64,000 nucleotides of DNA, from assembly GCF_003143515.1 (NCBI RefSeq), contig NZ_CP029343.1:5146001-5210000 (forward strand), given 5' to 3'. This document shows positions 28,957-44,855 of the stretch, in pieces. The DNA comes from Massilia oculi (lineage in GTDB: Bacteria; Pseudomonadota; Gammaproteobacteria; Burkholderiales; Burkholderiaceae_D). The position numbers and the translations under genes are program-made. Numbering within the stretch: position 1 is the stretch's first letter; each line of letters starts with the position of its first letter. The notes beneath the pieces are model-generated. The model was not told where the DNA came from, searched no databases, and worked only from the letters and a program-made list of their open reading frames with translations.

Positions 28957-29328
28957 TCACCCGTCGAGCAAGCCCGCCGCCGCCTCCACCAGCGCCTCGG
29001 GACTGAAGGGCTTGACCATGTAATGATCGGCCCCCGCGGCCAGCCCGGCCGCGACGTCGCTCTGCTGGCCGCAGGCCGACAGCAGCATGATCTTCATGCG
29101 GGCAGTCGCAGGCAGCCCCTTCAGCTTGCGGCACAGTTCCAGGCCGCTGATGCCTTCGCCCAGCCAGACGTCCAGGATCAGGAGGTCGGGCACCGCTTCG
29201 GCCAGCCGCGCCAGCGCGGCCTCGGCGCTGGAGGCCTGCGTCACCTCGCCCAGCGCGCGCAGGGTCAGGCGGATCAGGAGGCGCAGGTCGGGCTGGTCGT
29301 CGACGACGAGGATGCTGCGGGTCGTCAA
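28957..29328 (-). CDS. Stand-alone receiver-domain response regulator
   Basis: Single receiver domain of 123 residues without an output domain. It has the acidic pair in ILVVDDQPDLRLLI, phospho-acceptor Asp in LLILDVWLGEGISG, the Ser/Thr position in IMLLSACGQQ and the conserved Lys in YMVKPFSPEAL. The start is a TTG overlapping the TGA stop of the upstream kinase (TTGA), with GGAGG four bases before it, so it is translationally coupled to the GAF-PAS kinase. Such CheY/Spo0F-like proteins act by protein contact or phosphorelay, so it may be the direct phosphate acceptor of that kinase while the HTH-receiver upstream does the DNA binding. Confidence 0.88.
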   Translation of the reverse strand: MTTRSILVVDDQPDLRLLIRLTLRALGEVTQASSAEAALARLAEAVPDLLILDVWLGEGISGLELCRKLKGLPATARMKIMLLSACGQQSDVAAGLAAGADHYMVKPFSPEALVEAAAGLLDG

Positions 29329-30905
29329 GAGGCCTCCGGGTCGGCGGGCACGCCGTCGCGCGGCAGCCAGAAGGTCACCTGGGTGCCGTCTCCCGGATTC
29401 GAGGCGATCTCCACCTGGCCGCAGTGGACGGCCACGATCTCGCGCACGATGGTCATGCCCAGGCCATTGCCCGGCACGTCGGGCAGGGCGCCGGCGCGCC
29501 AGAAGGCCTCGTACACCTGGGTGCGCTGCTCTGGCGTCATGCCGACGCCACGGTCGCTGACGGTCACGGCAACGCCCGGGCGGTCGTTGCGCGCCGCATC
29601 CGCGATGCCGATCTCGACCTGGCTGTCCGGCGCCGAATAGGCCAGGGCGTTGGCCACGATATTGGCCAGCGCCTGCTGCACGCGCTGCGGGTCGGCCTGG
29701 ACCTGTGGCAGGGCCGGGGCCGGGCGCAGCACGATGCGGGCCGACTGCGCCGGGTCCTCGATCCCGGCTTTCACCTTCTCCATTACCTGGGCGAGATCGA
29801 GCGGCGCCGGGTGCATCTGGTCCGAACCGCCCGAATCGATGCGCGCAAGGTCGAGCATCTGGTTCACCAGGCCGACCATGCGGGTGGCCTGGCGGTGGAT
29901 GATGTCGATCAGCTCGCGCCCGGTGGCGGCGTCGAAGTCGCGCTTGAGCAGCAGTTCGGAAAAGCCGAGGATGCTGGCCATCGGCGTGCGCAGCTCGTGG
30001 CTGGCAGTGCGGAAGTAATCGTGGCGGCGCCGGTTGGCGGCGCGTACCCGTTCCTGCTCGGCGCGGTGCCAGGCCACGTCGCGCACCGTGGCCACCAGGT
30101 AGGCCTGGCCGTCGAGCCGCATCTCGGCGATCGAGACTTCGGCCGCGAAGGTGCTGCCGTCCATGCGCCGGCCCGTGCCCTCGTGGCGCGCCACCGCCTT
30201 CGGCTGGATGCCGATCAGGGCGCCCGACGGCTGTCCGGCCAGCACCTGGCAGGGGGCGCCGAACATGCGCTCGGCGGCCGGGTTGCAGGACTGGATCGTG
30301 CCGGCCGCGTCGAACAGCAGCACGCCGTCCGGCAGGTGCTCGAGCAGGGCGCGCATGGTCTGGGCACTGCGCCGCTCGCGCTCGGCCATGGCCTGCAGTT
30401 CGAGGGCGGCGACTTCGCCCGCGACGATGCCGGCCAGGTCGCGCAGCATCGTGCGTTCATCGGGGCCGAACTCGCGCGGCACGCGGTCGATGATGCACAG
30501 GGTGCCGACGCGCGCGCCGTCGCCGATCTCGATCGGCGAGCCGGCGTAGAAGCGGACCCCGGCATCGCCCAGGACCAGCGGATTGTTCGCGAAACGGGCG
30601 TCCTCGCAGGCGTCGCGCACCACCATCACGTCGTCCTGCAGGATCGCGTGGGCGCAGAACGAGGACGGGCGCGGCGTTTCCGTCAGCGCCATGCCGACCC
30701 GCGACTTGAACCACTGGCGGTCGGCGTCGATCAGGCTGACCAGCGCGGTCGGCACGCCGAACAGGCGCGCGGCCAGGCGCGTGATGCGGTCGAAGCGCTC
30801 GTCGGGCGGCGAATCCAGCAGGTCGAGGTCGATCAGGACCTGCATGCGGCGCGCCTCGTCGGCGGGCAGCGGGGCGGAATCAGGGAGTGTCTCGTTCATG
30901 TTCAT
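29325..30905 (-). CDS. GAF-PAS sensor histidine kinase, module copy 1
   Basis: Cytoplasmic kinase of about 526 residues with no transmembrane helix. GAF domain at about 25-165 (PTALVSLIDADRQWFKSRVG, CAHAILQDDVMVVRD, VGTLCIIDRVPREF), PAS at about 185-300 (LPDGVLLFDAAGTIQSCNPA), HisKA with FRTASHELRTPMASILGF and HATPase with NIVANALAYSAP and GNGLGMTIVREIVAVHCG. The ATG at 30905 (or 30899) is chosen by homology to copy 2; the long open frame upstream overlaps another gene and is spurious. It follows the HTH-receiver gene by 38 bases and overlaps the lone receiver. It is closely similar to the kinase at 31720, so the pair arose by tandem duplication. The GAF wording is of the type often found in kinases responding to redox or small ligands. 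Confidence 0.9.
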   Translation of the reverse strand: MNMNETLPDSAPLPADEARRMQVLIDLDLLDSPPDERFDRITRLAARLFGVPTALVSLIDADRQWFKSRVGMALTETPRPSSFCAHAILQDDVMVVRDACEDARFANNPLVLGDAGVRFYAGSPIEIGDGARVGTLCIIDRVPREFGPDERTMLRDLAGIVAGEVAALELQAMAERERRSAQTMRALLEHLPDGVLLFDAAGTIQSCNPAAERMFGAPCQVLAGQPSGALIGIQPKAVARHEGTGRRMDGSTFAAEVSIAEMRLDGQAYLVATVRDVAWHRAEQERVRAANRRRHDYFRTASHELRTPMASILGFSELLLKRDFDAATGRELIDIIHRQATRMVGLVNQMLDLARIDSGGSDQMHPAPLDLAQVMEKVKAGIEDPAQSARIVLRPAPALPQVQADPQRVQQALANIVANALAYSAPDSQVEIGIADAARNDRPGVAVTVSDRGVGMTPEQRTQVYEAFWRAGALPDVPGNGLGMTIVREIVAVHCGQVEIASNPGDGTQVTFWLPRDGVPADPEAS

Positions 30906-30943
30906 TGGCGTGCGTTGGCGCGAGTTGGCTGTCCTGGCCCTGC

Positions 30944-31591
30944 TCAGCCTGTCGCCGGCAGCCGCGCGGTGACGGCCGCGCGCAGGGCCGCGAGCGGGGC
31001 CGGCTTGGTGAGGTAGGGTACGTCCTCGGGCAGGCCCATGGCCAGCACCATCGGTTTGTCCATGCCGCTGACGACTACCAGCGGCAGGCTGGCGGTGGCA
31101 GGATTGCTGCGCAGGGTGCGGATCATGCCGAAGCCGTCCAGGCCGGGCATGTGCAGGTCGCTCACCAGGATGTCGGGCCGCGCCTCGCCGATCCGGATCA
31201 GCGCCTCGATGCCGTTGCTGGCCTTGCGCACCGCGAGGTCCAGGCCCCAGGTCGAGATCTCCAGCTCGTACAGGCGCAGCAGGATGGCGTCGTCGTCGAC
31301 GATCAGGACGCTGCGTGTGCAGGGGGCTGGCGCGATCGGGCGCGCCGCGGCGATCGGACGGGGTACGCCGGCCAGTGCGGCGCGGCGTTCTGACAGCAGG
31401 CGCTCGACCGACTCGACGGCGATGCGGCGATGGCCGCCCGCCGTCTTCCAGGCCTGCAGCGTGCCGTTCTCGACCCACATCTGCACCGTACGGTGCGATA
31501 CGCCGATCCGGTCGGCGGCCTGCCTCGTCGTGCAAAAGGCGGCGCGGTCGAATGTGCGTTCCTCGGTGACTTGCTGATCGACGGTTTTCAT
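30944..31591 (-). CDS. Excisionase-type HTH fused to C-terminal receiver domain, module copy 1
   Basis: Protein of 215 residues from the ATG at 31591. The N-terminal part (about residues 16-70) is an excisionase/MerR-like HTH_17 domain: FCTTRQAADRIGVSHRTVQM, then LQAWKTAGGHRRI. The C-terminal part (about 92-212) is a receiver domain with VLIVDDDAILLRLYELEI, phospho-acceptor Asp in ILVSDLHMPGLDGFGM, VVVSGMD and the Lys of YLTKPAPLAAL. Most response regulators place the receiver first and the DNA-binding domain last; here the order is reversed and the HTH type is unusual. It is followed by its GAF-PAS kinase. Shared AT-rich elements lie directly upstream of its start codon (31592-31620). Confidence 0.88.
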   Translation of the reverse strand: MKTVDQQVTEERTFDRAAFCTTRQAADRIGVSHRTVQMWVENGTLQAWKTAGGHRRIAVESVERLLSERRAALAGVPRPIAAARPIAPAPCTRSVLIVDDDAILLRLYELEISTWGLDLAVRKASNGIEALIRIGEARPDILVSDLHMPGLDGFGMIRTLRSNPATASLPLVVVSGMDKPMVLAMGLPEDVPYLTKPAPLAALRAAVTARLPATG

Positions 31592-31620
31592 ATTTACTGA
31601 TTTTACTGTTTCGCATTTGC
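31592..31620 (-). promoter_or_regulatory. AT-rich element upstream of module copy 1, shared with the DUF11 cluster promoter
   Basis: Directly upstream of the start codon, read on the plus strand: ATTTACTGATTT (31592-31603), TTTTACTG (31601-31608) and TTTCGCATTTGC (31609-31620). Counterparts ATTTACCGATTT (42884-42895), TTTTACTG (42848-42855) and TTTCGTATTTGC (42910-42921) occur upstream of the first DUF11 gene. A regulator binding site or AT-rich promoter core is likely. Confidence 0.4.
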
Positions 31621-31680
31621 CTGTCAAGGGCAAACCACAGGGAGATCAAATTACCACTGAGCAAATGATTGGAACGCAAT

Positions 31681-31707
31681 ACCGGTGTGGCGCGGGCGGT
31701 ACACCGG
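31681..31707. terminator. Hairpin between the two duplicated kinase modules
   Basis: ACCGGTGT (31681-31688) faces ACACCGG (31701-31707) around a 12-base GC-rich loop, just past the stop of kinase copy 2. There is no T run, so weak termination or none. The 128-base gap here is where the two modules could be separately transcribed. Confidence 0.3.
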
Positions 31708-31719
31708 CCCCCGGAAGGC

Positions 31720-33312
31720 TTATCCCGCGCCTTCGTCGGTGAACGCGGGCGGCAGGTACAGTGTGACTTCCGTACCCACGCCCAGCTGCGATTCGAGCGT
31801 GATCTGGCCGCCGTGCAGGTCGACGATTTCCTTGAGGATGGTCATGCCCAGGCCGCTGCCGGACACGCTCGAATCGCGATCGACGCGGTAGAAGGCGTCG
31901 AACACCTGAGCCTGCTGCTGGGGCGTCATGCCCAGACCCTGGTCGCGCACCCGGACCGCGACCATGAGCCGCCCGTCGCGCCGTTCCAGGCGCGCCTGGA
32001 CCGTGATCGGCGTGCCGGGGGCCGAATACTTGATGCTGTTGCTGACGATATTGGTCAGCGCCTGCTGCATCTTTTGGGCGTCGGCCGCCAGCGGCGGCAG
32101 GTCGGGCGCGAGATCGGTGCGCACGCGGTGGGACTGCCCCAGGCCTTCCAGGCAGGCCAGGGTCTGTTCCACCAGCGGGGGCAGGGCGACCGCGGCGAGC
32201 TTGAGTTCGGCCGCGCCCCCGGCCTCGATGCGCGCCAGGTCGAGCAGCTGGTTGACCAGGTCGACCAGGCGCCCCGATTCGCGGTGGATGATCTCGACCA
32301 GCTCGCGCTGGGTGGCAGGATCGAAGTCGCGCTTGAGCAGCAGCTCGGAAAAGCCCAGCACGCTCGACATCGGCGTACGCAGCTCATGGGTGGCGGTGGC
32401 GAAGTGGTGGCGCCGCCGCTCGTCGGTGGCGCGCGCGCGTTCCTCCTGGGCGCGGCGCTGGGTGATGTCGCGCACGGTGACGGCGAACTTGGGCCGCGCG
32501 GCCCAGGCCATGCGGCAGTACGAGAACTCGACCGGGAAGCGGCTGCCGTCCAGGCGCCGCGCGCCGGTCTCGTAGGGGCAGCCCTCGAGCAGCAGGCCGG
32601 CGCGGCGCCGCGCGACCAGGTCTTCGTCCAGCAGTTCGCCCAGCGGGCGGCCGGCCAGCATGGCGCCGCTGGCGCCGAAGATCTTCTCGGCGGCCGGATT
32701 GGCGGCGACGATCACGCCGTGCACATCGAGCATCAGGATGCCGTCCGGCAGGTGGGACACCAGGGCCTTTTCCCAGCCTTCCGGCGCGGGACGGCCGGCT
32801 GGCCGCGAACGCAGCTCGTCGCCGGCGATCGCCGCCAGGTCGCGTAGGGTCGCCATCTGGTCCTGGTCGAACTGGCGCACCTGGCTGTCGATCACGCACA
32901 GGGCGCCGACCCGGCTGCCGTCGGGCGCGGCCAGCGGGATGCCGGCATAGAAGCGCACGCGCGGCTCGCCCAGCACGAAGGGATTGGCGGCGAAGCGCGG
33001 GTCATGTCGCGCATCTTCGATCACCAGGCCTTCGGAGTGCTGGATGGTGTGGGTGCAGAACGAGGTGGCGCGCGACGTTTCGTGCAGGTCGATGCCGACC
33101 CGCGACTTGAACCACTGGCGCTCTGCGTCGACCAGGGCGACCAGCGAGATCGGCACGCCGAGCAGGCGGCAGGCGAGACGGGTGATGCGGTCGAAGCGTT
33201 CTTCGGATGGGGTGTCGAGCAGTTGCAGCTCGTGCAGGGCCCGGACGCGCGCGGCGTCGGGCTGGGGGTCAAGCAAGGCGGTGCGAACGGTCTTGTGCGG
33301 CTCGTGTCGCAT
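31720..33312 (-). CDS. GAF-PAS sensor histidine kinase, module copy 2
   Basis: Cytoplasmic kinase of 530 residues, paralogue of the kinase at 29325 with the same domain order. GAF at about 30-170 (PISLVALVDAERQWFKSRVG, CTHTIQHSEGLVIED, VGALCVIDSQVRQF), PAS at about 190-305 (LPDGILMLDVHGVIVAANPA), HisKA with FATATHELRTPMSSVLGF, HATPase with NIVSNSIKYSAP and GSGLGMTILKEIVDLHGG. The ATG at 33312 follows AGGAACAAGAAGA. It lies 15 bases after the HTH-receiver gene of its module. The two kinases agree over long stretches in HisKA and diverge more in PAS, consistent with duplication followed by a change in sensing. Confidence 0.92.
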   Translation of the reverse strand: MRHEPHKTVRTALLDPQPDAARVRALHELQLLDTPSEERFDRITRLACRLLGVPISLVALVDAERQWFKSRVGIDLHETSRATSFCTHTIQHSEGLVIEDARHDPRFAANPFVLGEPRVRFYAGIPLAAPDGSRVGALCVIDSQVRQFDQDQMATLRDLAAIAGDELRSRPAGRPAPEGWEKALVSHLPDGILMLDVHGVIVAANPAAEKIFGASGAMLAGRPLGELLDEDLVARRRAGLLLEGCPYETGARRLDGSRFPVEFSYCRMAWAARPKFAVTVRDITQRRAQEERARATDERRRHHFATATHELRTPMSSVLGFSELLLKRDFDPATQRELVEIIHRESGRLVDLVNQLLDLARIEAGGAAELKLAAVALPPLVEQTLACLEGLGQSHRVRTDLAPDLPPLAADAQKMQQALTNIVSNSIKYSAPGTPITVQARLERRDGRLMVAVRVRDQGLGMTPQQQAQVFDAFYRVDRDSSVSGSGLGMTILKEIVDLHGGQITLESQLGVGTEVTLYLPPAFTDEGAG

Positions 33313-33327
33313 TCTTCTTGTTCCTGT

Positions 33328-33987
33328 CTAAGTCTCCATGGCCTGGTCGCCTGCGCCGAGGATCTGTTCGACCTTGGCGCGCAGTTCGGGAAAACGCACC
33401 GGTTTGGAGAATACCGGTATGTCGGACGGCAATCCCATCGAGGCGATCGTTGCCCGGTCCAGCCCGCTGATGACGATGATCGCCATCTTGCCATAACGCG
33501 GATCGGCACGTAGCGTGCGTACCATGCGGAAACCATCCATGCCGGGCATGTTCAAGTCGCTGATCAACAGGTCGGGCCTGGCCTCGCCGATCCGGATCAG
33601 GGCGTCGAAACCGTCGCGCGCCTTGATCAGCTCGGCATCCAGGCCCCAGCCGGAGATTTCCAGCTCATACAGGCGCAGCAGGGCGGCGTCGTCGTCGGCC
33701 ATCACGATCCGGCGCGCCGAGGAGGGCTCCCTCGCTGCGGCCGGCTGGTTGGCGGCCGCGCCGCCCGTCACCGCCTGGTTGCGCTGGGCCACCAGCCGGT
33801 GCACCGAAGAGAGCAGGATGCGGCGGTGGCCGCCCGCCGTCTTCCACGCCTGCAGCACGCCGCCCTCGACCCACAGTTGCACCGTGCGGTGAGAGACGCC
33901 GAGCAGGCTGGCGGCCTCCTTGGTCGAACAGACTTCGGAGGAAGCGGGATCTGGCTGCGCCGGCGGTGAACTGCTGTGCGATTTCAT
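33328..33987 (-). CDS. Excisionase-type HTH fused to C-terminal receiver domain, module copy 2
   Basis: Protein of 219 residues from the ATG at 33987, paralogue of the protein at 30944. The HTH_17 domain (about residues 20-72) reads VCSTKEAASLLGVSHRTVQL then LQAWKTAGGHRRI, almost identical in its recognition part to copy 1, so both probably bind the same or similar DNA. The receiver (about 97-215) has IVMADDDAALLRLYELEI, phospho-acceptor Asp in LLISDLNMPGMDGFRM, IVISGLD and the Lys of VFSKPVRFPEL. A Ser/Ala/Pro-rich linker joins the two. It is the first gene of the five-gene unit HTH-receiver 2, kinase 2, HTH-receiver 1, kinase 1, lone receiver. The AT-rich 238-base region upstream separates it from the DUF11 cluster. 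Confidence 0.88.
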   Translation of the reverse strand: MKSHSSSPPAQPDPASSEVCSTKEAASLLGVSHRTVQLWVEGGVLQAWKTAGGHRRILLSSVHRLVAQRNQAVTGGAAANQPAAAREPSSARRIVMADDDAALLRLYELEISGWGLDAELIKARDGFDALIRIGEARPDLLISDLNMPGMDGFRMVRTLRADPRYGKMAIIVISGLDRATIASMGLPSDIPVFSKPVRFPELRAKVEQILGAGDQAMET

Positions 33988-34206
33988 GGATTCAGGTGTG
34001 CATATGGTTAAGTGCCCTGCAAGCAAGGCCGGCAAAAACACGCGGAGTACGCTTGCCGGATGGGCAAGCATGCGAAACGGGCATCATACAGGCTACCGGC
34101 ATGCGCACAAATACGCACGGGCAAGTCAACAATCTATCAAATTCTCACAATTTGCGATAGTGAAACGCGATAATCCGTTTCCTTATTGTAACTTGCGGTG
34201 GCAAAG

Positions 34207-35895
34207 TTATGCAGCACAATTGAAATTATTGCACCTTGACCGATACCGTGACGCTGCCGGTCGCCCCGGGCGCCAGGGTGCCGCTGACCCCCACTCGACC
34301 TTGCCGGTAGCGCCGACTTCGGGCTTGCTCGCCACCGTGCACGACAGTCCGGCCGGCATCGCGCCGCAACTGCTGTCCACATAGGTCGTATAGGCCGGGG
34401 TCGGGTCGCTCACCTTCAGGTTGTTGAGCGTGGTGGTGCCGGTATTCTCGAAAGTGATGGTGTAGGTGATGGTGTTGCCGGGCAGGGCGGCGGACCTGTC
34501 GGCCGCCTTGGTCAGCTTGAAATCGTCGCAGGTCTGGCAGATGCCTTCCACGGTCACCACCATTTCGCCCAGGCCGATGCCCAGCAGCTTGAGCAGCGGA
34601 TCGACCACGCCGGACAGGATCGGGGCAATCAGCGGCGACACGGTCTTGGTCACCAGGGTCACCACCAGCGGCTGGACCACGCCCTGCAGCAGGCCCAGGC
34701 CCGGCATGTCGCGGAACTTCAGGTTGGTCACCAGGCTGTTGGCGGCATTGGTCACGAATACCGTGCTGCTGCTGACGGTGCGGGTCTGCGGGAAGCTGCC
34801 GCTCATGGTGACGCTGGTCGAGAACGGCGCCTGGCCGCGCACGATGCTCTTGACGTCGAGCGGCACGTTGACCGCGGCCAGGCCCAGCGCGAGCGTCGCC
34901 TGCAGGTTGCCGATGTTGCCGTAGTCGACGTCCGAGTCCTGGATCGTGCGCGAGCGGTTGAAGAACACGCTGTCGTCGATCTTGCCGATGTACAGGTCGG
35001 CCACGCCCGGCGCCACCTGCAGGGTGACGGCCTTGGTGGCGGCGTCCACGGCCGCCAGGCTGCCCTGGCCGCGCGCGACGTCGGCATACACGTCGAGCTT
35101 GCCGATCGCGATCGAGGCGCTCTGCAGCAGCCCGAGGCCGACCAGGGTGTTGGTGACCGGGGCCAGCGTGACCAGGTCGAGCTTGAGCTTGATGCGCACC
35201 GCGGCCGAATAGAAGGTTGAGCCGGTCGGGCCGCATACGTATGACGGCGGCTCGATCACCTGGGCGTACAGCTGCACGCTGTTGACGATGCCGGCGGCGC
35301 CGAGGACGCCGCCCGAGATGCCGACCGGGACCGGCGTGGTGAGCACGTTGCGGCGGTTGTACAGCTGGATCAGGCCGGTGAACATGTCGAGCGCGTTGAC
35401 GGTGCTGGCGCCCAGCGAGCCGGTATCGGCCGTGATCTTGAGCAGGTCGCCCAGGCGCACGGTGGCGCCGGCGCCGTTCAGCTGCGAGGCCAGGCCGGAC
35501 AGGGCGGTGGCCAGCTGCGGCTTGGCTTCGGCCTGCGCCTCGACCGACAGCGCGTTCGCGATCTGGGCCAGCGTGATGTTCGCGCCCAGCACCTGCGAAG
35601 GGCTGGACAGGTTCAATTGCGTCTGCAGTACCTTCAGGAAGTTGAGCAGGTTCAGGTTGCCGCCGGCCAGCGCGTTCCAGTCGTGCGCATTGAGCGAGAC
35701 GCCGGTGCCGAGCAGGCCGCCCAGCAGGGGACCGAGCAGGGCGCTCTTGTTGGTGTCGACGCTGGCCAGGCGCGGGCCGGCGGTGATGCAGGCGCCGGTG
35801 GCGGTGCATTCTGCGCGCGCCGGCAGTGCGCTGGCCAGGCACAGGACCACCAGCAGGGCACGCAGCCAGGTGAAGCTCACGAATCGCGAAGTCAT
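34207..35895 (-). CDS. Secreted DUF11-domain protein, C-terminus altered by a single-base frameshift
   Basis: Exported protein of 562 residues as read, with GAGGAAAAAGAC before the ATG and a signal peptide of about 28 residues (LLVVLCLASALPARA). The long middle region is rich in Leu, Gly, Ala and Thr, with no named domain that I recognise. A DUF11-type beta domain lies at about 470-545 (NTITYTITFENTGTTTLNNL, YTTYVDSSCGAMPAGLSC). In the given sequence the end becomes nonsense after VEWG. Adding one C/G to the five-base run at 34288-34292 restores VEWGVSGTLAPGATGSVTVS and a stop at 34226, the normal end of a DUF11 domain. It is the last gene of the four-gene DUF11 cluster, 19 bases after the large barrel protein. 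Confidence 0.8.
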   Translation of the reverse strand: MTSRFVSFTWLRALLVVLCLASALPARAECTATGACITAGPRLASVDTNKSALLGPLLGGLLGTGVSLNAHDWNALAGGNLNLLNFLKVLQTQLNLSSPSQVLGANITLAQIANALSVEAQAEAKPQLATALSGLASQLNGAGATVRLGDLLKITADTGSLGASTVNALDMFTGLIQLYNRRNVLTTPVPVGISGGVLGAAGIVNSVQLYAQVIEPPSYVCGPTGSTFYSAAVRIKLKLDLVTLAPVTNTLVGLGLLQSASIAIGKLDVYADVARGQGSLAAVDAATKAVTLQVAPGVADLYIGKIDDSVFFNRSRTIQDSDVDYGNIGNLQATLALGLAAVNVPLDVKSIVRGQAPFSTSVTMSGSFPQTRTVSSSTVFVTNAANSLVTNLKFRDMPGLGLLQGVVQPLVVTLVTKTVSPLIAPILSGVVDPLLKLLGIGLGEMVVTVEGICQTCDDFKLTKAADRSAALPGNTITYTITFENTGTTTLNNLKVSDPTPAYTTYVDSSCGAMPAGLSCTVASKPEVGATGKVEWGSAAPWRPGRPAASRYRSRCNNFNCAA

Positions 35896-35914
35896 GTCTT
35901 TTTCCTCGTTCTTG

Positions 35915-38900
35915 TTACTTGAGCAGATCGCCGGACAGCAGGCCCTGCAGGGTATTTTCGTCGAATTTCATGCGCATCCGCACATAGGCGCCCTTGGCGG
36001 TGGCGTCGGCGCCGGCCAGGTCGCGCTCGGCGAAGCCCATGAAGTTGTAGCCGGCCGAGACCCACATGTTCTTCCTGAGCTGGTAGCCCGCTTCCAGGCC
36101 CGCCGCGTACTGGCGGCCGCGGGTGTCGCGGTCGAGCAGCATCTGGGCGGTGGCGCCGACGTCCCAGTCTTCGTTGATCTCGTGCGTCACGCGGCCGGCC
36201 ACCAGGTGGCTCACCGTGCGGGTCGACAGGCCGTTCGAGCGGTCCAGCGCGACCTTGGCGGCGTAGCGCGCGCTGACCACGGTGTCGCGGCGCAGCTGCC
36301 AGTTGGCGTTCATCGACACCGCGTGCACGGCGCGCTTGAGGTTGGCCGGGCCGTCGTCGCGTTCCAGCTTGTACTCGTACTTGGCCAGGCCGGTCACGCC
36401 GATCGATTCCAGGGCGCGGTAAGCGACGCCGCTCTGCAGCAGCTCGGTCAGGCGCAGCGTGGTGCCGGCGCCCTTCGAGCGGGTCGCGGCCAGGGTGTTC
36501 TTGCCCAGGAAGGTCCAGCTCTCGTCGATCTTGTAGGCCAGGCCCAGGGTCGACAGCAGGCCGTCGCTGTCTTCGCCATGGCGCAGTTCGAGGCGCGCGT
36601 TGCCGGTCCAGGTCGGATGGCGGCTCACTTCGATGGCGCCGGTCAGGGCGATCGCCTCGTTGTCGCGGGCGCCCGAAATGACCTTGACGCGTTCGACGCT
36701 GGTGTTGGCGCGCACGCCTTCGCCTAGGGTCCACAGGTTGCGCAGGCCGAGGGCCGCCTCGGCCTGGCGCTCGCCGAGCAGAGTGCCGGCCGGCGAGGTG
36801 CCGCCGGCACGGTATTCGGTGAACACGCGGCCGTCCTGCATGTAGTCGCTGTCGACGCCGAACACGGTGGCGCTGCGCTGCTGGCCCTGGTTCAGCGCAT
36901 AGGTCGAGCCCAGGCTGCTGATCAGTTCATGGCGGCCGTAGACGCGGCTGCCGCCGGCGAAGCGGTAGTCGCCACCCAGGGCCACCATGCGGCGGCCGCT
37001 GTCACGGATGTCCTGCTCGCCTTCCAGGAACACGCCGGCCTGCGGCAGGCCCGGGATCTGGGTGGCGATCTTGGCGCGCACGCTGGTCAGGTCCGGCTGG
37101 GCCAGCACGACGTTCGCGCCGGCCGATTCGCGGGCATGGCGCACGCCCAGTTCGACCTGCACGCCGTTGTCGAAGGTGTAGCCGCCGAACAGCTGCACGC
37201 CATTGCGCTCGGCCTCGGTTTCCAGGTCGGCGGTGTGCAGGGCTTCCAGGCCGATGCTGGCGCGCTCGGTGACGCGGTAGCGCACGGTGGCGCCGCCTTC
37301 GGTGCGGCCCTTCGGCAGCGACGACGATGGGTTGTCGAAGTTGGCGTCGGCGCGGCCGGCGAACAGGCGGCTTTCCAGCTTGCCGTCGGTGCGGGTGGCG
37401 TCCAGGCGGGCGGCGCGGCCCTTCTGGTCGGCCTTTTCCATTTGCGCGGCTTCGACGATCACGGTCGTCTTGTCGTCCGGGGTCACGCTGGCGTTGACGC
37501 TCACCAGGCGGGTCGGGGCGGCCGGGTTGCGGTCTTCCACGGCGCTGCCGCCGACTTCGACCATCTCGCCGATCTTGTACTGGACGGCGATACCGCCGAC
37601 CCAGAAGCGCGGGTGGCCCTGGTCGACTTCATAGCTGATGCGCAGGCTGATCGGGTTCATGTCCGGGTCCAGGCTCGGCACCGGGGCGCGCAGCAGGATG
37701 CGGCCGGTCAGCGGGTCGATGTCGTAGTCGGCGTAGCGCGCCAGCAGGCGGCGCGACAGCATCAGGCCGGTCTGGTTGCGGTCGCGCACGACGATCTCGA
37801 CGCGCTCGCTGTTGATGACCATCAGGCCGCCGCCGGTCAGGAACGGGCCCGAGGTGCCGTTGGCGGCGATCTCTTCGACCATCTGGCGCGTGGTGTCGTA
37901 GCTGGCGAAGGCGTCGAAGGTCAGGTTGCCGACTTCCGAATGGGTGCGCAGGCCCGTCAGGTTGCGGTTGTAGGCGCCCAGGTTGCGCGCCGGCGTCACG
38001 CCTGGCGGCACGTAGTCGCCGTACATCACGTAGGAGCGGTCGCGGTCGGCGCGCAGGTAGAGGCGGCTGGTCGACTGGGCTTCGAAGCCGCGGCGCGCGT
38101 CGTCGCCGTAGGTCGGGTAGTAGGCCAGCGGATCGATGTCGCGGAACAGCTTGGGCTCGGTTTCCTTGTCCGAATCGTAGGCCATGGTCAAGAGGGTGTC
38201 TTCGCCCACCTGGCCCTTGGCGAACATGGCGGCGCGGGCGCCGGCGGCCAGGCCGTTGCCGCTGGCGTTACCGCTGCGACGCTCGGCCATGTGGCGCAGC
38301 TTGTCCTCGAAGCCGTCGAAATCGCGCAGCGGGTTGGCGGTGTTGCCGCGCACCCGGTTCAGGCTGATGGAGCCTTCGACGACACCCGCCGCGACCAGCG
38401 GACGCAGGTCGGGCACGAAGCGCAGCGCGCCCCTGGCCTGCAGCAGGCCGCTGGCGGCCAGCAGGCGGGCTTCGCCGGCTTCCTTCGGTGCGCGCAGCGA
38501 GAATTCGGCGCTGCCGCCTTCGACGAACACCTGGTAGCCGGGCTCGCGCGGGTCGAGGTCGGTCGTGTCCCACTGGCCGGCGCTCGCGTCCAGGGTGACC
38601 GGGGTGCGCTCGACGACGGGCACGCCGTCGGCGTCTTCCAGGCTCACGGCGATCAGTACCGGCTGCTTCCCATCGGCCGGTGCCGCCTCGGTCTGCGGCT
38701 TGATACGCAGACGCGCCAGCTTGCCCGGCACCACGACGCCGATGCGCTGGCTGCCGCGGGCGTTGCCGAAGGCATCCTTCTGGGAGATTTCCAGCTCGTT
38801 GCGGCCAGGGCGCAGGGCGACGCCGACGTATTCGTAGACGTCGAGCTGGCGGTCGGCGACGGTGCTCTGCTGGCCGACGTGGCTGTCGTCGACTTCCACG

Positions 38901-40771
38901 CCGTTGACGGTGAGGGTGAAGCTGTTGCCGGCGGCGCCCTTGATGCGCACCATCGCCTGGCCGTAGGGCAGGACGGCGCCGTCTTCCAGGCCGATGAAGG
39001 CCAGCTGGTTGTCCATTGTCGCCAGGTCGAGGTCTTCGATTTTCGTGATCGTGACGGTTTTTTCCGGCATGGCCAGTTCGGAAGCGGCCTGCAGTTCGGC
39101 GCGCAGGCGCTCGGCGCGGCCCTTGACCGCGGCGCGCAGCTCGTCGGAGCAGGCGTCCAGCGCGAAATCGGCGCGCGCCAGCTCGCCGTCCTTCAGGTCG
39201 ACGAACCGGCTGCCGGCGTCGCCCGCGTTGCGGTTCGACAGGATGGCCAGCTGGCTGCCCGCCGGCAGGGTGGTGACGTCGACCTTGGCCACGTGGGTGC
39301 GCGGGGTGACGCCGGCGAAGCTGTAGCGGCCTTCTGCATCGGTCTGCGCGAAGTTGCCGTCTTCCAGCCAGATGCGCACGTCGGGCACGCCCGGCTCGTC
39401 CTGGTCGCGCAGGCCGTTGGCGTTGCAGTCGGCAAACACGGCGCCCACGATGTGGCCCTTGTCGCTGAAGATGCCGGCTTCGACCTTCACCTTGGCGGCG
39501 GCCACGGTGCTGGTCAGGACCAGGGGCGCGGCGCTGGTGGCGTGGGCGCGGTTGATGCCGTCGCCCTGCAGCGCGCCGGCGCCGATGCGTACGCGGTAGC
39601 GCAGCAAGCGGTTCGAGCGGCGCGGCACGTCGCCCACATTGATCACCAGTTGCGGGCCGCGGTTGGCGAACTTGCCGTCGAACGGCGCGTTATCCAGGCG
39701 CATCGAGCCCTGCACGTAGCTGAAACCGGCCGGCAGGTCGTCGATGACGGTAACGCCGCTCAAGGCCTCGTCGGCGGTATTGAACACGCGCACGGTGTAG
39801 TCCAGCACTTCCCCGACTTCGGCCACGGCGCGCGAGGCGTTCTTTTGCAGGTACAGCGTGCCCGGGATCGGGTCGAGCGGGACGTCGATGGTGACCACGC
39901 CGAGGGCGGCGCTGACGGTGAACTCGCCGCCGAACGAGCCGTACAGGTTGGTCTCGCGGTTGCCCGGCAGCTGGCCCGGCGAAGTCTTGGATGGGAAGCC
40001 ATAGTTGTTGGGTGGGGTGACCTTCAGGCGGTACAGGCTCGGGGCGACCAGCGGGAAGTGGTACATGCCGTTGCCGTCGGTGACGACGGTGCTCGGCAAG
40101 CGGGTTGCGGCGTCGACGTCGAACACGATCGCCGGGGCGCCCGGATTGCCGCCGTTGCCTTCGCCGGTGACGTCGATCAGGGTCACGGTGGCGCCGGCAA
40201 CCGGCTCGTTGCTGACGCTGTCGTAGACGATGCCGACCGGGTCGACCAGGATGTCGGTCGAGATCGCGCCGTTGCCGCAGCCGGCGACGCTGGCGGTGAG
40301 GGTGTCGTCGGGCATGACCTCGAGCATGCCGTCGCCGATGTCATTGTCGTCGCCGTCCTCGTCCCGCGCACGGTCCATGGTCATGGGGGTGATGCGGAAC
40401 AGGCCGCTGTCGGCCGCGGTTTCGCTGGCCATGAATGACTGGCTGTCGCCGGTCTTTTTCGAGGAAATGGTGACGCGGATGTCTTCGGCCCGTGCCGGGT
40501 TGGCGTTGCAGCCGGCGGCCGCGATCTGCACGAACAGCTGGCCGTTGGCGCGGGTGGCGCGCGCGACGGTCGAGAAGGCGGCCGAGGTGAAATAGGTGAT
40601 GGTGTCGGTCTGCTGCGCGCGCACCGTGTTCGATTCGACGGCGCCGGTGCCGCCGCCCGGCTGGGCGAAGCTGGCGCTGGCCTTGTTGACGATGGCGGCT
40701 CCCGCGTCGCCGCACAGCAGCAGGGTGGTGACCAGGCAGAAGAAGACGAAGTGTCGGAGCTGAGTGACCAT
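35915..40771 (-). CDS. Very large DUF11/SdrD-B-like protein with C-terminal outer-membrane barrel
   Basis: About 1618 residues from the ATG at 40771. Signal peptide at about 1-26; an N-terminal segment AIVNKASASFAQPGG like that of the 437-residue neighbour; an acidic stretch at 133-148 (DRARDEDGDDNDIGDG) that looks like calcium-binding repeats; a DUF11 domain at about 304-425 (DYTVRVFNTADEALSGVTVI); and an SdrD-B-like domain at about 440-540 (GAVFADCNANGLRDQDEPGV). From about residue 770 the sequence is a long series of alternating amphipathic beta strands with many charged turns and a pattern of YNRNLTG, YADYDIDPLTG and GRHELISS, typical of a large barrel. Fused adhesin-like domains plus barrel suggest an outer-membrane anchor or export channel for the neighbouring secreted DUF11 proteins. 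The function is not known to me. Confidence 0.8.
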   Translation of the reverse strand: MVTQLRHFVFFCLVTTLLLCGDAGAAIVNKASASFAQPGGGTGAVESNTVRAQQTDTITYFTSAAFSTVARATRANGQLFVQIAAAGCNANPARAEDIRVTISSKKTGDSQSFMASETAADSGLFRITPMTMDRARDEDGDDNDIGDGMLEVMPDDTLTASVAGCGNGAISTDILVDPVGIVYDSVSNEPVAGATVTLIDVTGEGNGGNPGAPAIVFDVDAATRLPSTVVTDGNGMYHFPLVAPSLYRLKVTPPNNYGFPSKTSPGQLPGNRETNLYGSFGGEFTVSAALGVVTIDVPLDPIPGTLYLQKNASRAVAEVGEVLDYTVRVFNTADEALSGVTVIDDLPAGFSYVQGSMRLDNAPFDGKFANRGPQLVINVGDVPRRSNRLLRYRVRIGAGALQGDGINRAHATSAAPLVLTSTVAAAKVKVEAGIFSDKGHIVGAVFADCNANGLRDQDEPGVPDVRIWLEDGNFAQTDAEGRYSFAGVTPRTHVAKVDVTTLPAGSQLAILSNRNAGDAGSRFVDLKDGELARADFALDACSDELRAAVKGRAERLRAELQAASELAMPEKTVTITKIEDLDLATMDNQLAFIGLEDGAVLPYGQAMVRIKGAAGNSFTLTVNGVEVDDSHVGQQSTVADRQLDVYEYVGVALRPGRNELEISQKDAFGNARGSQRIGVVVPGKLARLRIKPQTEAAPADGKQPVLIAVSLEDADGVPVVERTPVTLDASAGQWDTTDLDPREPGYQVFVEGGSAEFSLRAPKEAGEARLLAASGLLQARGALRFVPDLRPLVAAGVVEGSISLNRVRGNTANPLRDFDGFEDKLRHMAERRSGNASGNGLAAGARAAMFAKGQVGEDTLLTMAYDSDKETEPKLFRDIDPLAYYPTYGDDARRGFEAQSTSRLYLRADRDRSYVMYGDYVPPGVTPARNLGAYNRNLTGLRTHSEVGNLTFDAFASYDTTRQMVEEIAANGTSGPFLTGGGLMVINSERVEIVVRDRNQTGLMLSRRLLARYADYDIDPLTGRILLRAPVPSLDPDMNPISLRISYEVDQGHPRFWVGGIAVQYKIGEMVEVGGSAVEDRNPAAPTRLVSVNASVTPDDKTTVIVEAAQMEKADQKGRAARLDATRTDGKLESRLFAGRADANFDNPSSSLPKGRTEGGATVRYRVTERASIGLEALHTADLETEAERNGVQLFGGYTFDNGVQVELGVRHARESAGANVVLAQPDLTSVRAKIATQIPGLPQAGVFLEGEQDIRDSGRRMVALGGDYRFAGGSRVYGRHELISSLGSTYALNQGQQRSATVFGVDSDYMQDGRVFTEYRAGGTSPAGTLLGERQAEAALGLRNLWTLGEGVRANTSVERVKVISGARDNEAIALTGAIEVSRHPTWTGNARLELRHGEDSDGLLSTLGLAYKIDESWTFLGKNTLAATRSKGAGTTLRLTELLQSGVAYRALESIGVTGLAKYEYKLERDDGPANLKRAVHAVSMNANWQLRRDTVVSARYAAKVALDRSNGLSTRTVSHLVAGRVTHEINEDWDVGATAQMLLDRDTRGRQYAAGLEAGYQLRKNMWVSAGYNFMGFAERDLAGADATAKGAYVRMRMKFDENTLQGLLSGDLLK

Positions 40772-40801
40772 GGCGCGGGAGTCGGAAAGAGAATTCGAGA
40801 T

Positions 40802-40821
40802 GCGGCGTCCGAAGACGCCGC
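40802..40821 (-). terminator. Intercistronic hairpin with TTCG tetraloop in the DUF11 operon
   Basis: On the minus strand GCGGCGTC-TTCG-GACGCCGC is a perfect 8-bp stem with a TTCG tetraloop, 21 bases after the stop of the 437-residue protein and 30 bases before the barrel gene. A moderately T-rich stretch follows (ATCTCGAATTCTCTTTCC). It may attenuate transcription or protect the 3' end of the upstream message, giving far more secreted protein than barrel. Confidence 0.65.
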
Positions 40822-40842
40822 GCTTGCTGGATGAAGGAACGC

Positions 40843-42156
40843 TTACGGGTTGATCTTGACGCCGAAATTCAGCGTGTTCGACTCGTTCGGGTTCAGGTTG
40901 AAGCCGGTGGCAGACACGGTGGTGACGACGCCCGCGTTGAGCGGCGCCAGGATCGAGCCGAGCACGGTCTGGGCGGCGGCGCCGGTGTGGTACGTGGTGT
41001 TGGCCGGCACGTTGTCGGTGATGACCACGGCGTTGATCGTGGTCAGGCCCTTGTTGGTGGCGACGATCTGGTAGCGGATGCACGCGCCCGGCGCGGCGGT
41101 GATCGGGTCCTTGGTGAACACGCCTTCCGGGGTGCCGTTGCAGTCGGCGTCCAGGGCCTGGGTCTTGACCAGTTCCAGCAGCGAGTCGCCGGCGACGACG
41201 GTCACGGCTTCGTGGATGCGGTCCGAGATGGCGCCGTTGGTGGTCGACTGCGCGCGGAACCAGATGTCGGTGGTGCCCGGGGTCGCGCCCGCGGCCGGGG
41301 TGACTTCCGCGGTGACCTTGACGTTGGCGCCGGCGGCGACGGTGGCGTTGGTGATCACCTGGCCGTTGGCGTCCTTGAACACGACGGTCCAGCCGGCCGG
41401 CAGCGGGGCGCCGCCGAAGTTGACATCGGTGCTGGCTGCCAGCGCGAAGGTGTCGGGGCTGCCGCCGGTGTTGTTCAGGTAGATGACGAACGAGGTCATG
41501 GTGCCGGCGGTGGTGAGCTTGGTCTCGATGGCGGCCGCTTCCGGACCCTGGCCGTTGCCCGGCGCAGTCGGGCCGAAGGCGTTGGCGGTGATGTCCATGA
41601 GGGCGCCGGCGCCGACGGTGGTGGTGTCGGTGCTGGTGGCGCTGACGCTGCCGTTGAAGCCGCTGGTAGCCTTCACTTGCATGGTGTTGGTGGTGCCGGT
41701 GGTCGCCCCTGCCGCCAGGGTGGCGACGGCCACGAAGCTGTAGGTGGCGCCCGGGGCCAGCTGGCCGGTCGAGGTGATCGGGGTGGCGTTGTCGGCCGCG
41801 CCGTTGCCGTCGGCGTCCAGATAGAACACCACGCCGGTCAGGGCCAGGGCGCCGCTGTTGGTCTGGCTGAGCGCGAAGGTATCCGGACCGTTGCCGGTGT
41901 TGGTCACGCTGTGGGCGAACACCACCTGGGTCCCGGCCGCGCCGCTCTTGGCGGTGCCGTTGTTGATGTTCAGGCTCGCCACTTGCTGGACGGTGGTGGT
42001 GACCACGTTCGACTGGACGGTCTTGGTGCCGGTCGAGTCGGTATAAGTGGCGCTGGCCTGGTTGGTGATCAGGGTGCCGGCGGCGGTCGGGGCTGCGCTG
42101 GCGTTGGCGACGGCCAGCAGCGAGGCTGCGGCGACGAGCGTGAGACGGGTTTTCAT
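40843..42156 (-). CDS. Secreted DUF11-domain protein, 437 residues
   Basis: Exported protein with AAGGAAG before the ATG and a clean signal peptide (LVAAASLLAVANASA, about 1-22). The mature start (TAAGTLITNQASATYTDSTG) resembles the N-terminal segment of the large barrel protein. The body is Thr/Ala/Gly/Val-rich, low in charge and aromatic residues, with two internal immunoglobulin-like repeats (TNTGNGPDTFALSQTNSG and LNNTGGSPDTFALAASTD) and a C-terminal DUF11 domain at about 340-435 (IRYQIVATNKGLTTINAVVI). Such composition is typical of secreted or surface-layer structural proteins. It has its own AT-rich promoter region (42157-42284) and is followed by a strong hairpin, suggesting high expression. 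Confidence 0.85.
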   Translation of the reverse strand: MKTRLTLVAAASLLAVANASAAPTAAGTLITNQASATYTDSTGTKTVQSNVVTTTVQQVASLNINNGTAKSGAAGTQVVFAHSVTNTGNGPDTFALSQTNSGALALTGVVFYLDADGNGAADNATPITSTGQLAPGATYSFVAVATLAAGATTGTTNTMQVKATSGFNGSVSATSTDTTTVGAGALMDITANAFGPTAPGNGQGPEAAAIETKLTTAGTMTSFVIYLNNTGGSPDTFALAASTDVNFGGAPLPAGWTVVFKDANGQVITNATVAAGANVKVTAEVTPAAGATPGTTDIWFRAQSTTNGAISDRIHEAVTVVAGDSLLELVKTQALDADCNGTPEGVFTKDPITAAPGACIRYQIVATNKGLTTINAVVITDNVPANTTYHTGAAAQTVLGSILAPLNAGVVTTVSATGFNLNPNESNTLNFGVKINP

Positions 42157-42284
42157 GGCTTCTTCCTTCTTGTCAGACGGGAAATGAATCGGGTTTGTAC
42201 TGCGATTGAACCGGGTAAAAACGAAATAAAATTATCAAAAAAACAACTATATGAACGGAATTCGGGCGTCAGGGCTTTCCTCCC

Positions 42285-42797
42285 TTATTTGCTTGCCAAT
42301 TTGGGGGCGCTGCCGATCGAGATCACTTTCATGCGTGAGCTGACGGTGACTGCCTGGCCGGGCGCGAGATCGCCCAGGTTCCAGCGCAGGAAGCGGTATT
42401 CGGAGGCAGGCACCCGCTCGACGACGCGCAGGCCCTTGCGCATGACTTCACGGGTCAGGGGCAGGGGGGCGAAGTTCCTCCCGTCGAGGCTGGCCTGGAC
42501 CGCCTTCGGCGCCGCGCTGCCAGCCAGGTAGCTCATCGCGCCTTCGGGAACTGGCAGGGTCGCGGCCACCGCCTGGGCCACGGCCTTGCCCTGGTTCTGG
42601 TAGGTGATCTGGTATTCGATGGTGTCGCCGATTTCGGCTTCGAGTGCCGGCACCAGTTTCTCGCCGCCCTTGTCCTGGGCAACGACCTGGAAGGCCTGCA
42701 GACGCACGTCGACGGCCTGGGTATCGGCCGCGAATACTTTGGTGCCTGCCAGCACGATGGTCCAGAACAGCAGGATATTCAGGATACGGATGGTCAT
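42285..42797 (-). CDS. Small exported DUF11-like protein, first gene of the cluster
   Basis: Protein of 170 residues from the ATG at 42797 (AAGGAATTCC precedes it), with a signal peptide MTIRILNILLFWTIVLAGTK ending near AFA-type residues at about 24. The body is one beta-sandwich domain of DUF11 type: EIGDTIEYQITYQNQGKAVA, LPVPEGAMSYLAGS, and the closing WNLGDLAPGQAVTVSSRMKV. Its small size and single domain make it a possible periplasmic chaperone-like or subunit partner of the other DUF11 proteins; no enzyme motif is present. It is transcribed first in the cluster, after a 360-base AT-rich intergenic region that contains motifs also found upstream of the HTH-receiver gene. Confidence 0.8.
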   Translation of the reverse strand: MTIRILNILLFWTIVLAGTKVFAADTQAVDVRLQAFQVVAQDKGGEKLVPALEAEIGDTIEYQITYQNQGKAVAQAVAATLPVPEGAMSYLAGSAAPKAVQASLDGRNFAPLPLTREVMRKGLRVVERVPASEYRFLRWNLGDLAPGQAVTVSSRMKVISIGSAPKLASK

Positions 42798-43157
42798 GGA
42801 ATTCCTTTGAATCAGACGGTGGATTGGAGAAGTCATCATGGTTTCGGTTTTACTGGTTTGGTCGATGAGCCGAATTCTATCGGATTTACCGATTTGCTCA
42901 AGAAAAATATTTCGTATTTGCAGATTTTGATGTTTTTAGGAAACGAACTGGGAGATGGATAGTGGATACCTCGTAGCAACTCCGCATGGATGATGGACCG
43001 GTTGGCATCAGTGTTGCTCAGCAACAACGACATATGTTCTGTTTTTCAATCTTCTGACTTTGCTGAATTTACTGTGGGCATTTTTTGGCGCATGATGGTT
43101 TCCATGCCTCCTGTGGCGCCGCGCTCCGCGTCGCCCTCACCTTTAACCTGTGGATAT
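42798..43157. promoter_or_regulatory. AT-rich 360-base divergent promoter region between the DUF11 cluster and the chemotaxis operon
   Basis: I see no gene here. It contains TTTTACTGGTTT (42848-42859), ATTTACCGATTT (42884-42895), TTTCGTATTTGC (42910-42921) and ATTTACTG (43067-43074). The first three have close counterparts upstream of the HTH-receiver gene at 31591. The region serves the small DUF11 gene on the minus strand and the receptor gene on the plus strand. The AT content is clearly higher than in the flanks. Confidence 0.5.
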
Positions 43158-44855
43158 ATGGAAACCATCTACCTGGAATCACCCGACGCCCTTCAGGACC
43201 TGCGCGCGATCTATTCGGCGCTCGACGGCGCCCAGGCCATCATCGAATTCGATATAAATGGCAATATCCTGCGCGCCAATGACAACTTCCTGGCCGTGAC
43301 CGGCTACACCGACGACGAGTTGACGGGCCGGCATCATTCGATGTTCTGCCAGCGCGACCTGATCGACTCGCCGGCCTACTTGCGCTTCTGGCAAGACCTG
43401 GCCGCCGGAAAGACCGACCGCGCCGAGTACAAGCGCATTGCCAAGGGCGGGCGAGAGTTCTGGATCAATGCCTCCTACAATCCGGTCAAGGACGCCAGCG
43501 GCCGCGTGTGCAAGATCATCAAGTTCGCCACCGACATCACGCTGGAAAAACTCCGCGCCGCCGAGACCTCGGGTCTGGTGGCGGCGATCGGCAAGGCCCA
43601 GGCCGTGGTCGAATTCGACATGAACGGCATCCTGCTGGACGCCAACGCCAATTTCCTCGACCTGCTCGACTACGCGCTGGAAGACGTGCGCGGCGAGCAC
43701 CACCGTGTGTTCTGCGACGACGAATATGCCGCCAGCGCGGCCTATCGTCGCTTCTGGGGCAAGCTCAACCGCGGCGAATTCGACGCCGGCCGCTACAAGC
43801 GCCATGGCAACAACGGCAAGACGGTGTGGATCCAGGCCACCTACAACCCGATCTTCGACGCCGACGGCAAGCCGGTGAAGGTGGTCAAGTTCGCCACCGA
43901 CATCACCGAGCAGGTGATGCTGGAGCACGCCGCCGTCGCGCGCGCCGAATCCGAACGCCAGAAGGTCGACACACTGCTCGAGCAGGTTGCGCGCGCCTCG
44001 CGCGGCGACCTGACCGGCTCGATCGACACCAGCGGCGACGAGCCGCTCGACCAGCTGGCGCGCGGCGTCATGAAGATGATCGGCGACCTGCGCTCCGTGA
44101 TCGGCGACGCCGTCGACGCCGCCGGCAAGCTCAACGACTCTTCGCGCGCGATCGCCGACCGTTCGAACACGGTCGCCGCCAGCGCCCAGGCGCTGGGCGC
44201 CACGGTGGAGCAGATGAACGCCTCGGTCGACGGCCTGACCGCCTCGATCAACACCATCGCGCGCAGCACCCAGGAAGCCAATGCCCTGGCCCAGAACACC
44301 CGCGACGAGGCCGAGATCGGCGCCAGGGCGATCGCCCGCTCGATCGAGGCGATGGCGATGATCAACCAGTCGTCCGAAGACATCGGCGAGATCGTGAAGG
44401 TGATCGGCGAGATCGCCGGCCAGACCAATATGCTGGCCTTCAATGCCGCGATCGAGGCGGCGCGCGCCGGCGAGCACGGCCTGGGCTTCTCGGTGGTGGC
44501 CGACGAGGTCAGGAAGCTCGCTGAACGCTCTTCGCAGGCGACCAAGGAAATCTCGAAACTGATCAATGAATCGGTGCGCCGCGTGGCCCAGGGCAGCGAG
44601 ATCTCGCGACAGGCGAGCGAAGCCTTCGACCGCATCACCACGGGCGTGGGCAAGACCTCGCTGGCGATCGCCGAGATCTCGGACAGCGCCAGCGAGCAGT
44701 CGCTGACGGCCAAGGAAGTGAGCGCCGCGATTCTCTACATCGCCCAGGAAACCGAGCGATCGGCGGGTTCCTGCGACAGCATCGCGCGTTCGACCGAGGG
44801 CCTGAACGAACACGCCGGACACCTGAACGCCACCGTGGCCCGCTTCGTGGTGTAA
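43158..44855 (+). CDS. Soluble methyl-accepting chemotaxis protein with two PAS domains
   Basis: Chemoreceptor of about 565 residues from the ATG at 43158 ([15 protein letters not shown]); the frame is open further upstream, where an ATG at 43092 is an alternative. Two PAS domains of the Aer/BdlA type follow each other at about 15-125 ([20 protein letters not shown]) and 140-250 ([20 protein letters not shown]), each with the FCQRD/FCDDE element. There is no transmembrane segment, so it is cytoplasmic. A HAMP-like linker and the long helical signalling domain follow, with the hairpin tip [20 protein letters not shown] and [15 protein letters not shown]. Members with this layout (BdlA-like) sense redox or internal metabolic state. 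It is followed by cheR with 9 bases between. Confidence 0.9.

Follow-up and report, generated by a model that had tools for sequence, protein, structure and literature searches.

Duplicated HTH_17-receiver regulators of Massilia oculi and their predicted BldC-like action on 9-bp direct-repeat arrays at surface genes

We analysed a 64,000-nucleotide stretch of the Massilia oculi genome (contig NZ_CP029343.1, positions 5,146,001 to 5,210,000 of the forward strand; hereafter the window) that contains a five-gene two-component unit. On the minus strand, the unit reads RR2-K2-RR1-K1-REC, where RR1 and RR2 are regulators with an N-terminal helix-turn-helix (HTH) and a C-terminal receiver, K1 and K2 are histidine kinases, and REC is a lone receiver. 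The unit is linked to a four-gene DUF11/SdrD_B cluster (the D11 genes) and a divergent chemoreceptor gene (PAS-MCP), and the locus carries arrays of direct repeats with a 9-bp period that are conserved in Massilia. We consider it likely that RR1 and RR2, served by the two kinases, are receiver-gated BldC-like regulators of surface attachment that act on these arrays. Further genomes and loci are numbered G and L below, G000 being the M. oculi genome.

The alignment of the D11d/PAS-MCP intergenic region from eight species showed conserved blocks of CRGYAAA-like units. The same-strand spacings in the eight regions had a peak at 9 (10 pairs, against a shuffle mean of 0.01), with lesser counts of 6 at 8, 6 at 16, and 5 at 25, and the reverse strand of these regions contained no half-site pairs. 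The array repeat is a head-to-tail 9-bp unit, approximately CRGTAAAnn. A matrix made from 32 nine-mers of four genomes (the window, G011, G026, and G004) was then used to scan for three tandem units with a threshold of 20 bits. The 14 loci kept out of the training (223,343 bases with some overlap) had 46 positions above the threshold at period 9, distributed over 13 loci; each other period between 5 and 15 gave 0–6, and mononucleotide shuffles of the same loci gave none. When overlaps were merged and five pilus loci added, 32 clusters above 20 bits were found at period 9, in 14 of 14 sets, as compared with 0, 5, 3, 3, and 4 at periods 7, 8, 10, 11, and 12. Most arrays precede D11d, PAS-MCP, a regulator or a pilus operon; some others precede the kinase gene HK3, follow REC, or fall within a called gene. 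The period scans thus point to tandem 9-bp direct repeats at the predicted target promoters.

The sites found in the window are listed in Table 1. A preliminary description of this DNA had proposed that the regulators bind upstream of positions 31591 and 42797, and both regions carry 9-bp arrays. The RR1-promoter array is kept before RR1 in L021, L022, L023, and L024. Arrays at the regulator's own promoter were found in the window, L025, L128, L141, and L148, and weaker ones in L026 and L030. Before D11d there is a promoter-like pair (−35 at 42901–42896, −10 at 42879–42874) that scores 9/12, no better than shuffles; in Massilia phyllostachyos, five consecutive units precede the gene. About 40–50 bp separate the end of the M. 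oculi pilus array (31.0 bits; five imperfect units by eye) from the first SCPU gene as called. Since the arrays overlap the −10 element and start codon of RR1 and flank the D11d promoter-like pair, we favour repression or phospho-switched occupancy as the likely mode of action.

Table 1. Genes, promoter-like elements and 9-bp arrays of the window
Feature	Position	Strand	Basis or remark
RR2, HTH_17 (BldC-like winged HTH) and C-terminal receiver, 219 aa	33328..33987	-	Pfam PF12728, PF00072
K2, GAF-PAS-HisKA-HATPase_c histidine kinase, 530 aa	31720..33312	-	Pfam
RR1, diverged duplicate, HTH_17 and receiver, 215 aa	30944..31591	-	Pfam
K1, GAF-PAS-HisKA-HATPase_c histidine kinase, 526 aa	29325..30905	-	Pfam
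REC, lone receiver, TTG start overlapping K1 stop	28957..29328	-	Pfam Response_reg only
Sigma-70-like promoter of RR1, TTGACA-16-TAAAAT, 11/12	31600..31627	-	−10 ends 8 nt before ATG
9-bp tandem array over −10 and start codon of RR1, CAGTAAAAT.CAGTAAATA.TGAAAACCG	31582..31608	-	26.4 bits, matrix not trained on array
Weak 9-bp array upstream of RR2, TCGCAAATT.GTGAGAATT.TGATAGATT	34131..34157	-	15.4 bits
DUF11/SdrD_B four-gene cluster, proposed main target	34207..42797	-	Pfam/NCBIfam
D11d	42797-42285	-
D11c	42156-40843	-
D11big	about 40771-35915	-
D11a	35895-34207	-
9-bp arrays before D11d (42906-42932, 42874-42900, 42838-42864)	42838..42932	-	27.7, 23.8, 23.9 bits, partly training data; alignment of 8 species
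9-bp array on PAS-MCP side of intergenic region, CAGTAAATT.CAGCAAAGT.CAGAAGATT	43048..43074	-	36.3 bits, partly training data; conserved in 8 species
PAS-PAS-MCP chemoreceptor, divergent from D11d	43158..44855	+	Pfam; same divergent pair in relatives

Among 598 stretches, at least 512 were confirmed relatives, and 79 loci were retained for comparison. D11 genes lay within 10 kb of the regulator in 18 of the 79, including loci of Pseudoduganella, Azoarcus, a Comamonadaceae, a Hydrogenophilales, and a gammaproteobacterial metagenome-assembled genome (outside Massilia, L150, L159, L163, L168, and L187). With matches to both the D11-type regulator and D11c counted at ≥60% identity, nine of the 37 Massilia-genus genomes had D11c, and every one of them belonged to the 12 with the regulator, none to the 25 others (Fisher 1.8e-6, kinship ignored). 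The remaining three regulator genomes gave no D11c match, and one of them, G020, keeps part of D11a beside the module. At that locus (L021), D11d, D11c, D11big, and the chemotaxis genes are missing and a hybrid kinase abuts the shortened D11a, which is either a natural deletion or a misassembly. Partial D11c matches (35–41%) were present in three genomes of other families, G038 and G051 with an HTH-receiver match and G057 without.

On the other side of the module, G024, G013, G010, G019, G028, and G012 have an SCPU-PapD-usher-SCPU operon, presumably of the Csu type, with HK3 before it; the Pfam searches covered the four genes in L025 and the usher alone in L026, L027, and L030. The window keeps HK3, a dCache-HAMP-PAS kinase gene on the REC side of the unit (26204–28522, plus strand), with no pilus operon between HK3 and REC. 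The only SCPU genes of the M. oculi genome (1960169–1964790) lie about 7–12 kb from a third regulator (G000:1952404–1953030; L040), which is an HTH-receiver gene accompanied by a lone receiver and no adjacent kinase, and this neighbourhood recurs in G011, G020, G004, and G026. In Acinetobacter, the two-component system BfmRS controls the Csu archaic chaperone-usher pilus; BfmR is a REC-first OmpR-type regulator, and we know of no 9-bp arrays in that system.

The likeness to BldC of Streptomyces lies in the HTH. Its best sequence match in the PDB was BldC (6ama, 6amk; E about 2.6e-4), and its best fold match was BldC 6AMA, with a root-mean-square deviation (rmsd) of 1.1 over 50 columns and E 1.1e-3, none of the fold matches passing 0.001. 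The same fold occurs in Xis excisionases (4J2N, rmsd 0.9) and in the winged HTH of RacA (5I44, rmsd 2.7); these proteins, which act in recombination or chromosome anchoring, differ in having no receiver. According to PMC5859096, the protomers of BldC line up head to tail on the DNA, each on a 9-bp direct repeat. RR1 and RR2 share with BldC the MerR-like winged HTH, the basic wing GGHRR (His46, Arg47, and Arg48 in mapped BldC numbering), Trp31, and non-polar residues at the head-to-tail contact, where BldC Phe21 corresponds to Leu/Ile and BldC Leu43 to Ala; the classical MerR proteins that the paper names (PMC5859096) have a charged or polar residue at position 43. On the other side of the balance, the base-reading Arg30 of BldC is Leu in RR2 and Met in RR1, and the NCBIfam BldC model NF033787 gave 32.9 and 33.6 bits against a cut-off of 77. 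BldC is also a small single-domain protein that recognizes AATTxxxxC, whereas RR1 and RR2 carry a C-terminal receiver and the repeat here is CRGTAAAnn. Since the wing and Trp31 are kept and Arg30 is replaced, a BldC-like binding mode fits but membership of the BldC family does not.

Other known regulators are more distant. Classical MerR proteins have a coiled coil after the HTH and palindromic sites, in contrast with the receiver and the one-strand half-site pairs seen here. Regulators of the OmpR/PhoB and NarL kinds likewise couple a receiver to a DNA-binding domain and have an adjacent histidine kinase, and some bind direct repeats (PMC5859096), but RR1 and RR2 differ in carrying the receiver at the C-terminus and in having a DNA-binding domain of the HTH_17/MerR kind.

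In the proposed mechanism, the winged HTH of RR1 and RR2 would read the 9-bp repeats with one protomer per repeat, head to tail, and the receiver, phosphorylated by K1 and K2, would probably set assembly on the array. The predicted targets are the DUF11/SdrD operon, the divergent PAS chemoreceptor gene, the RR1 promoter, and the SCPU/usher pilus operon, which lies elsewhere in the M. oculi genome and beside the module in relatives. We infer the binding, the phosphorylation, the sign of regulation, and the signal from sequence. More tentatively, the proteins could represent an uncharacterised, widespread regulator class, in which phosphorylation of the receiver gates the head-to-tail growth of BldC-like filaments on 9-bp iterons (in some promoters up to five imperfect units), a companion receiver tunes the response, and the output in Massilia and its kin is an adhesion regulon of DUF11/SdrD surface proteins, SCPU/usher pili, and a chemoreceptor. 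The mode of DNA reading proposed here is known from a regulator without the switchable receiver that RR1 and RR2 have. If true, the family would gain a predicted binding code, a phospho-gated BldC-like mechanism, and a predicted regulon, and co-regulation of the DUF11/SdrD cluster with usher pili would hint at a function in attachment.

The preliminary description was right as to the duplicated regulator-kinase pair, its gene order and coordinates, the excisionase-type HTH, and the receiver-last arrangement (by Pfam, HTH_17 followed by Response_reg in both regulators). The layout had been called unusual, which holds beside REC-first regulators, but it is common, being present in 69 of 299 genomes drawn from the phylum (E 1e-25, at most ten candidates scored per genome). 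As to the concern that this might be a common and already characterised family, only the first half applied: no paper on an HTH_17-receiver regulator was recognised in the literature searched, in which subscription journals were poorly covered, and the available parts of PMC5859096, PMC8910723, PMC3637814, and PMC10533852 describe none. A kinase resembling K1, K2 or HK3 lay within 3 kb in at least 33 of the 79 loci, and a GAF domain like that of K1/K2 within 1.5 kb in at least 18; both are lower bounds because many contigs are short. RR2 is 93% identical in M. timonae and 95% in M. arenae, and REC is 94% identical in Massilia oculi. The plasmid search returned 217 records, of which 5 cover ≥80% of the query, the best at 45%.

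The preliminary description quoted HTH strings that are exact in the RR1 and RR2 translations, and noted nearly identical HTHs with more divergent receivers, a contrast that is not peculiar to this pair. The HTHs are 67% and the receivers 55% identical; among 178 pairs of similar receiver identity (39 family members), the mean HTH identity was 70%, and 95% of the pairs reached at least 67%. The segment GVSHRTVQLWVExGxLxAW(K/R)TAGGHRRI recurs in regulators next to MraW/PBP genes and in others next to peptidase U32 genes and, judged by sequence, is a family constant. The idea that the similar HTHs prove a shared target of RR1 and RR2 was accordingly ruled out, such similarity being usual among family pairs. 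The HTH-receiver genes of L032–L036 are flanked by genes for peptidase U32 and molybdopterin oxidoreductase (assigned by Pfam in L033 alone) and preceded by a conserved element resembling TGTGATTATTTGATAGATT.

The components required for phosphotransfer appear to be present. The PF00072 domains of RR1, RR2, and REC contain the acceptor Asp and the conserved Lys; Asp53 and Lys106 of the lone receiver are invariant in 12 of 12 chosen copies, and in 56 chosen regulator rows Lys195 is invariant and Asp144 is found in at least 90%. In both kinases, HisKA and HATPase_c exceed the cut-off and HELRTP is present. The AlphaFold2 model of RR2 had a mean predicted local distance difference test (pLDDT) score of 86.6, with residues 76–87 below 50. 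RR2 and K2 are separated by 15 bp, and K2 and RR1 by 128 bp. Since the latter gap holds the promoter-like pair TTGACA-16-TAAAAT, RR1-K1-REC can, on this evidence, form a transcript of its own, and from the position of the −10 element relative to the ATG we infer that this transcript is probably leaderless. The Rfam scan of the window gave 0 matches.

We propose that the two sensors feed one output through cross-talk. K1 and K2 are 48% identical overall, but from the phospho-His onward they agree at 21 of 23 positions, which makes cross-talk likely, and the first helices of the RR1 and RR2 receivers, where specificity residues are located, are nearly the same and predict it as well. The alternative that RR2-K2 and RR1-K1 are insulated, with different arrays or signals and neither competition nor cross-talk, seems rather unlikely in view of these residues, but some differences between the pairs speak for it: RR1 and RR2 fall into separate groups, the RR1 branch being long, their single recognition-helix difference (Leu/Met) sits at the position of BldC Arg30, the element upstream of RR2 is different and weak, and the sensor domains have diverged (GAF 57%, PAS 40% identical).

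The history of the pairs was examined in relatives, where the unit is RR-HK-REC and adjoins the DUF11 cluster in L026 and L030, a hybrid kinase intervening in L027 and L028; the RR-HK-RR-HK order occurs in the window, L021, L022, L023, and L024. RR2 is nearer than RR1 to the single-copy regulators (HTH 80 vs 71%, receiver 69 vs 57%). The kinases of L026, L030, and L031 are 57–60% identical to K2 and 53–54% to K1, and those of L027 and L028 are 46–47% identical to both. In the tree, which was used only for this grouping as its bootstrap had not converged, RR1 formed a separate 100/100 clade on a long branch. Most simply, these comparisons suggest that RR-HK was duplicated inside an ancestral RR-HK-REC unit and that RR1-K1 diverged faster.

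REC is coupled to K1, as had been described, by the TTGA common to the K1 stop and the REC start, with GGAGG directly upstream. A lone receiver at least 50% identical was found in 10 of 11 loci L021–L031, in 5 of 5 loci L040–L044, and in 20 of 24 loci L127–L150, and was not found in L024, L130–L132, L149 or the U32-linked L032–L036; since the copy is missing in some loci, it is a usual but not universal partner. An RR-REC pair without an adjacent kinase occurs in L040, elsewhere in the M. oculi genome, and in four relatives (L041–L044); the neighbours in L043 are MraW and PBP transpeptidase genes, and the gene order looks alike in L040–L042 and L044. In our view the lone receiver is an ancient third partner that the module can do without, and it most likely competes as a phosphoryl acceptor. 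That K1 instead signals mainly through this receiver, for instance to motility, would fit with a first helix different from those of RR1 and RR2 and with the chemotaxis genes nearby (42990–47780), but this is improbable, as the receiver stands beside the HTH-receiver gene in L040–L044, where blast found no K1/K2-like kinase and the gene-call comparison no chemotaxis gene, and is missing in L024 and L130–L132, where both kinases remain. The chemotaxis cluster also encodes, after the PAS-MCP gene, a protein with three CheW-like stretches (46191–47780, plus strand).

Several results weigh against the assignment of the arrays to RR1 and RR2. In twelve control loci, which hold other regulators, period 9 yielded 5 positions, spread over 4 loci, and other periods yielded 0–3. 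The 14 sets of the merged scan are not independent, since several belong to closely related strains or species and the training genomes supplied four of the five added pilus loci. The RR2 upstream array is weak (15.4 bits also in M. timonae), and the regulator promoters of L027 and L028 have no array among the listed peaks. Outside Massilia the array evidence, as scored by the matrix, is weaker, and only Azoarcus (23.8 against 13.5 in ten shuffles) and the Comamonadaceae (20.2 against 12.9), both with TGATAAA-like units, clearly exceed shuffles. The peaks of the Hydrogenophilales (20.1 against 19.3) and of Pseudoduganella (16.8 against 16.2, within coding sequence) hardly exceed them, and that of the gammaproteobacterial metagenome-assembled genome (19.2 against 19.1) does not do so convincingly, although this genome has CGGTAATAT.CGGTAATTA before D11d and Pseudoduganella has CAGTAAAAGTGATAC twice.

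The genome-wide pattern searches were likewise mixed. An initial, over-tight pattern had no matches. Among the 12 genomes that have the D11-type regulator, the tight pattern AWYCRGYAAAYNCGAWA, derived from eight of the genomes tested, had 16 matches, spread over 10 of the 12; it had 4 in three of the 25 others, and its reverse never matched in the genus; by reading, 14 of the 16 lie within module, D11 or pilus loci. With CRGTAAANNCRGYAAA, there were 21 matches in the 12 genomes (reversed 3) and 16 in the 25 (reversed 6). In the M. oculi genome, CRGYAAANNCRGYAAA with 1 mismatch gave 24 matches vs 16 reversed, CAGTAAANNCAGTAAA with 2 mismatches 17 vs 11, and the three-unit pattern with 2 mismatches 9 vs 9. 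Genome-wide enrichment was thus rejected as proof, since the looser patterns do not clearly exceed the reversed controls, and for the same reason we propose a small regulon. With 1 mismatch, CAGTAAANNCAGTAAA also occurs in regulator-free genomes, mostly as one CAGAAAATCCAGTAAA, a sequence that turns up in 29 of the 37 Massilia-genus genomes whether or not they carry the regulator.

Least probable is that another regulator reads the arrays, RR1 and RR2 control other targets, and the locus merely gathers surface genes and regulators: the same HTH in the third regulator, the tight matches in genomes without the D11-type regulator, and the arrayless promoters of L027 and L028 speak for it, but the arrays cover the regulators' own promoters in the loci named above, and their spacing is the one used by the nearest solved HTH.

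A tandem CAGTAAATTCAGTAAA at G000:4896109 (L055) lies about 650 bp upstream of flhC and is found in only three of 23 same-genus flhC loci, M. oculi included; flhDC is a candidate member of the predicted regulon only. In many other Massilia, CCTAAAGTTC...CCGTTAA blocks, which we take to be reminiscent of sigma-28 promoters, are repeated upstream of flhDC. Finally, CGATAAAACCAGTAAAATCACTAAC occurs at G000:4439221 (L073), between a second PAS-MCP gene and a LacI-type regulator, with a similar site in G020.

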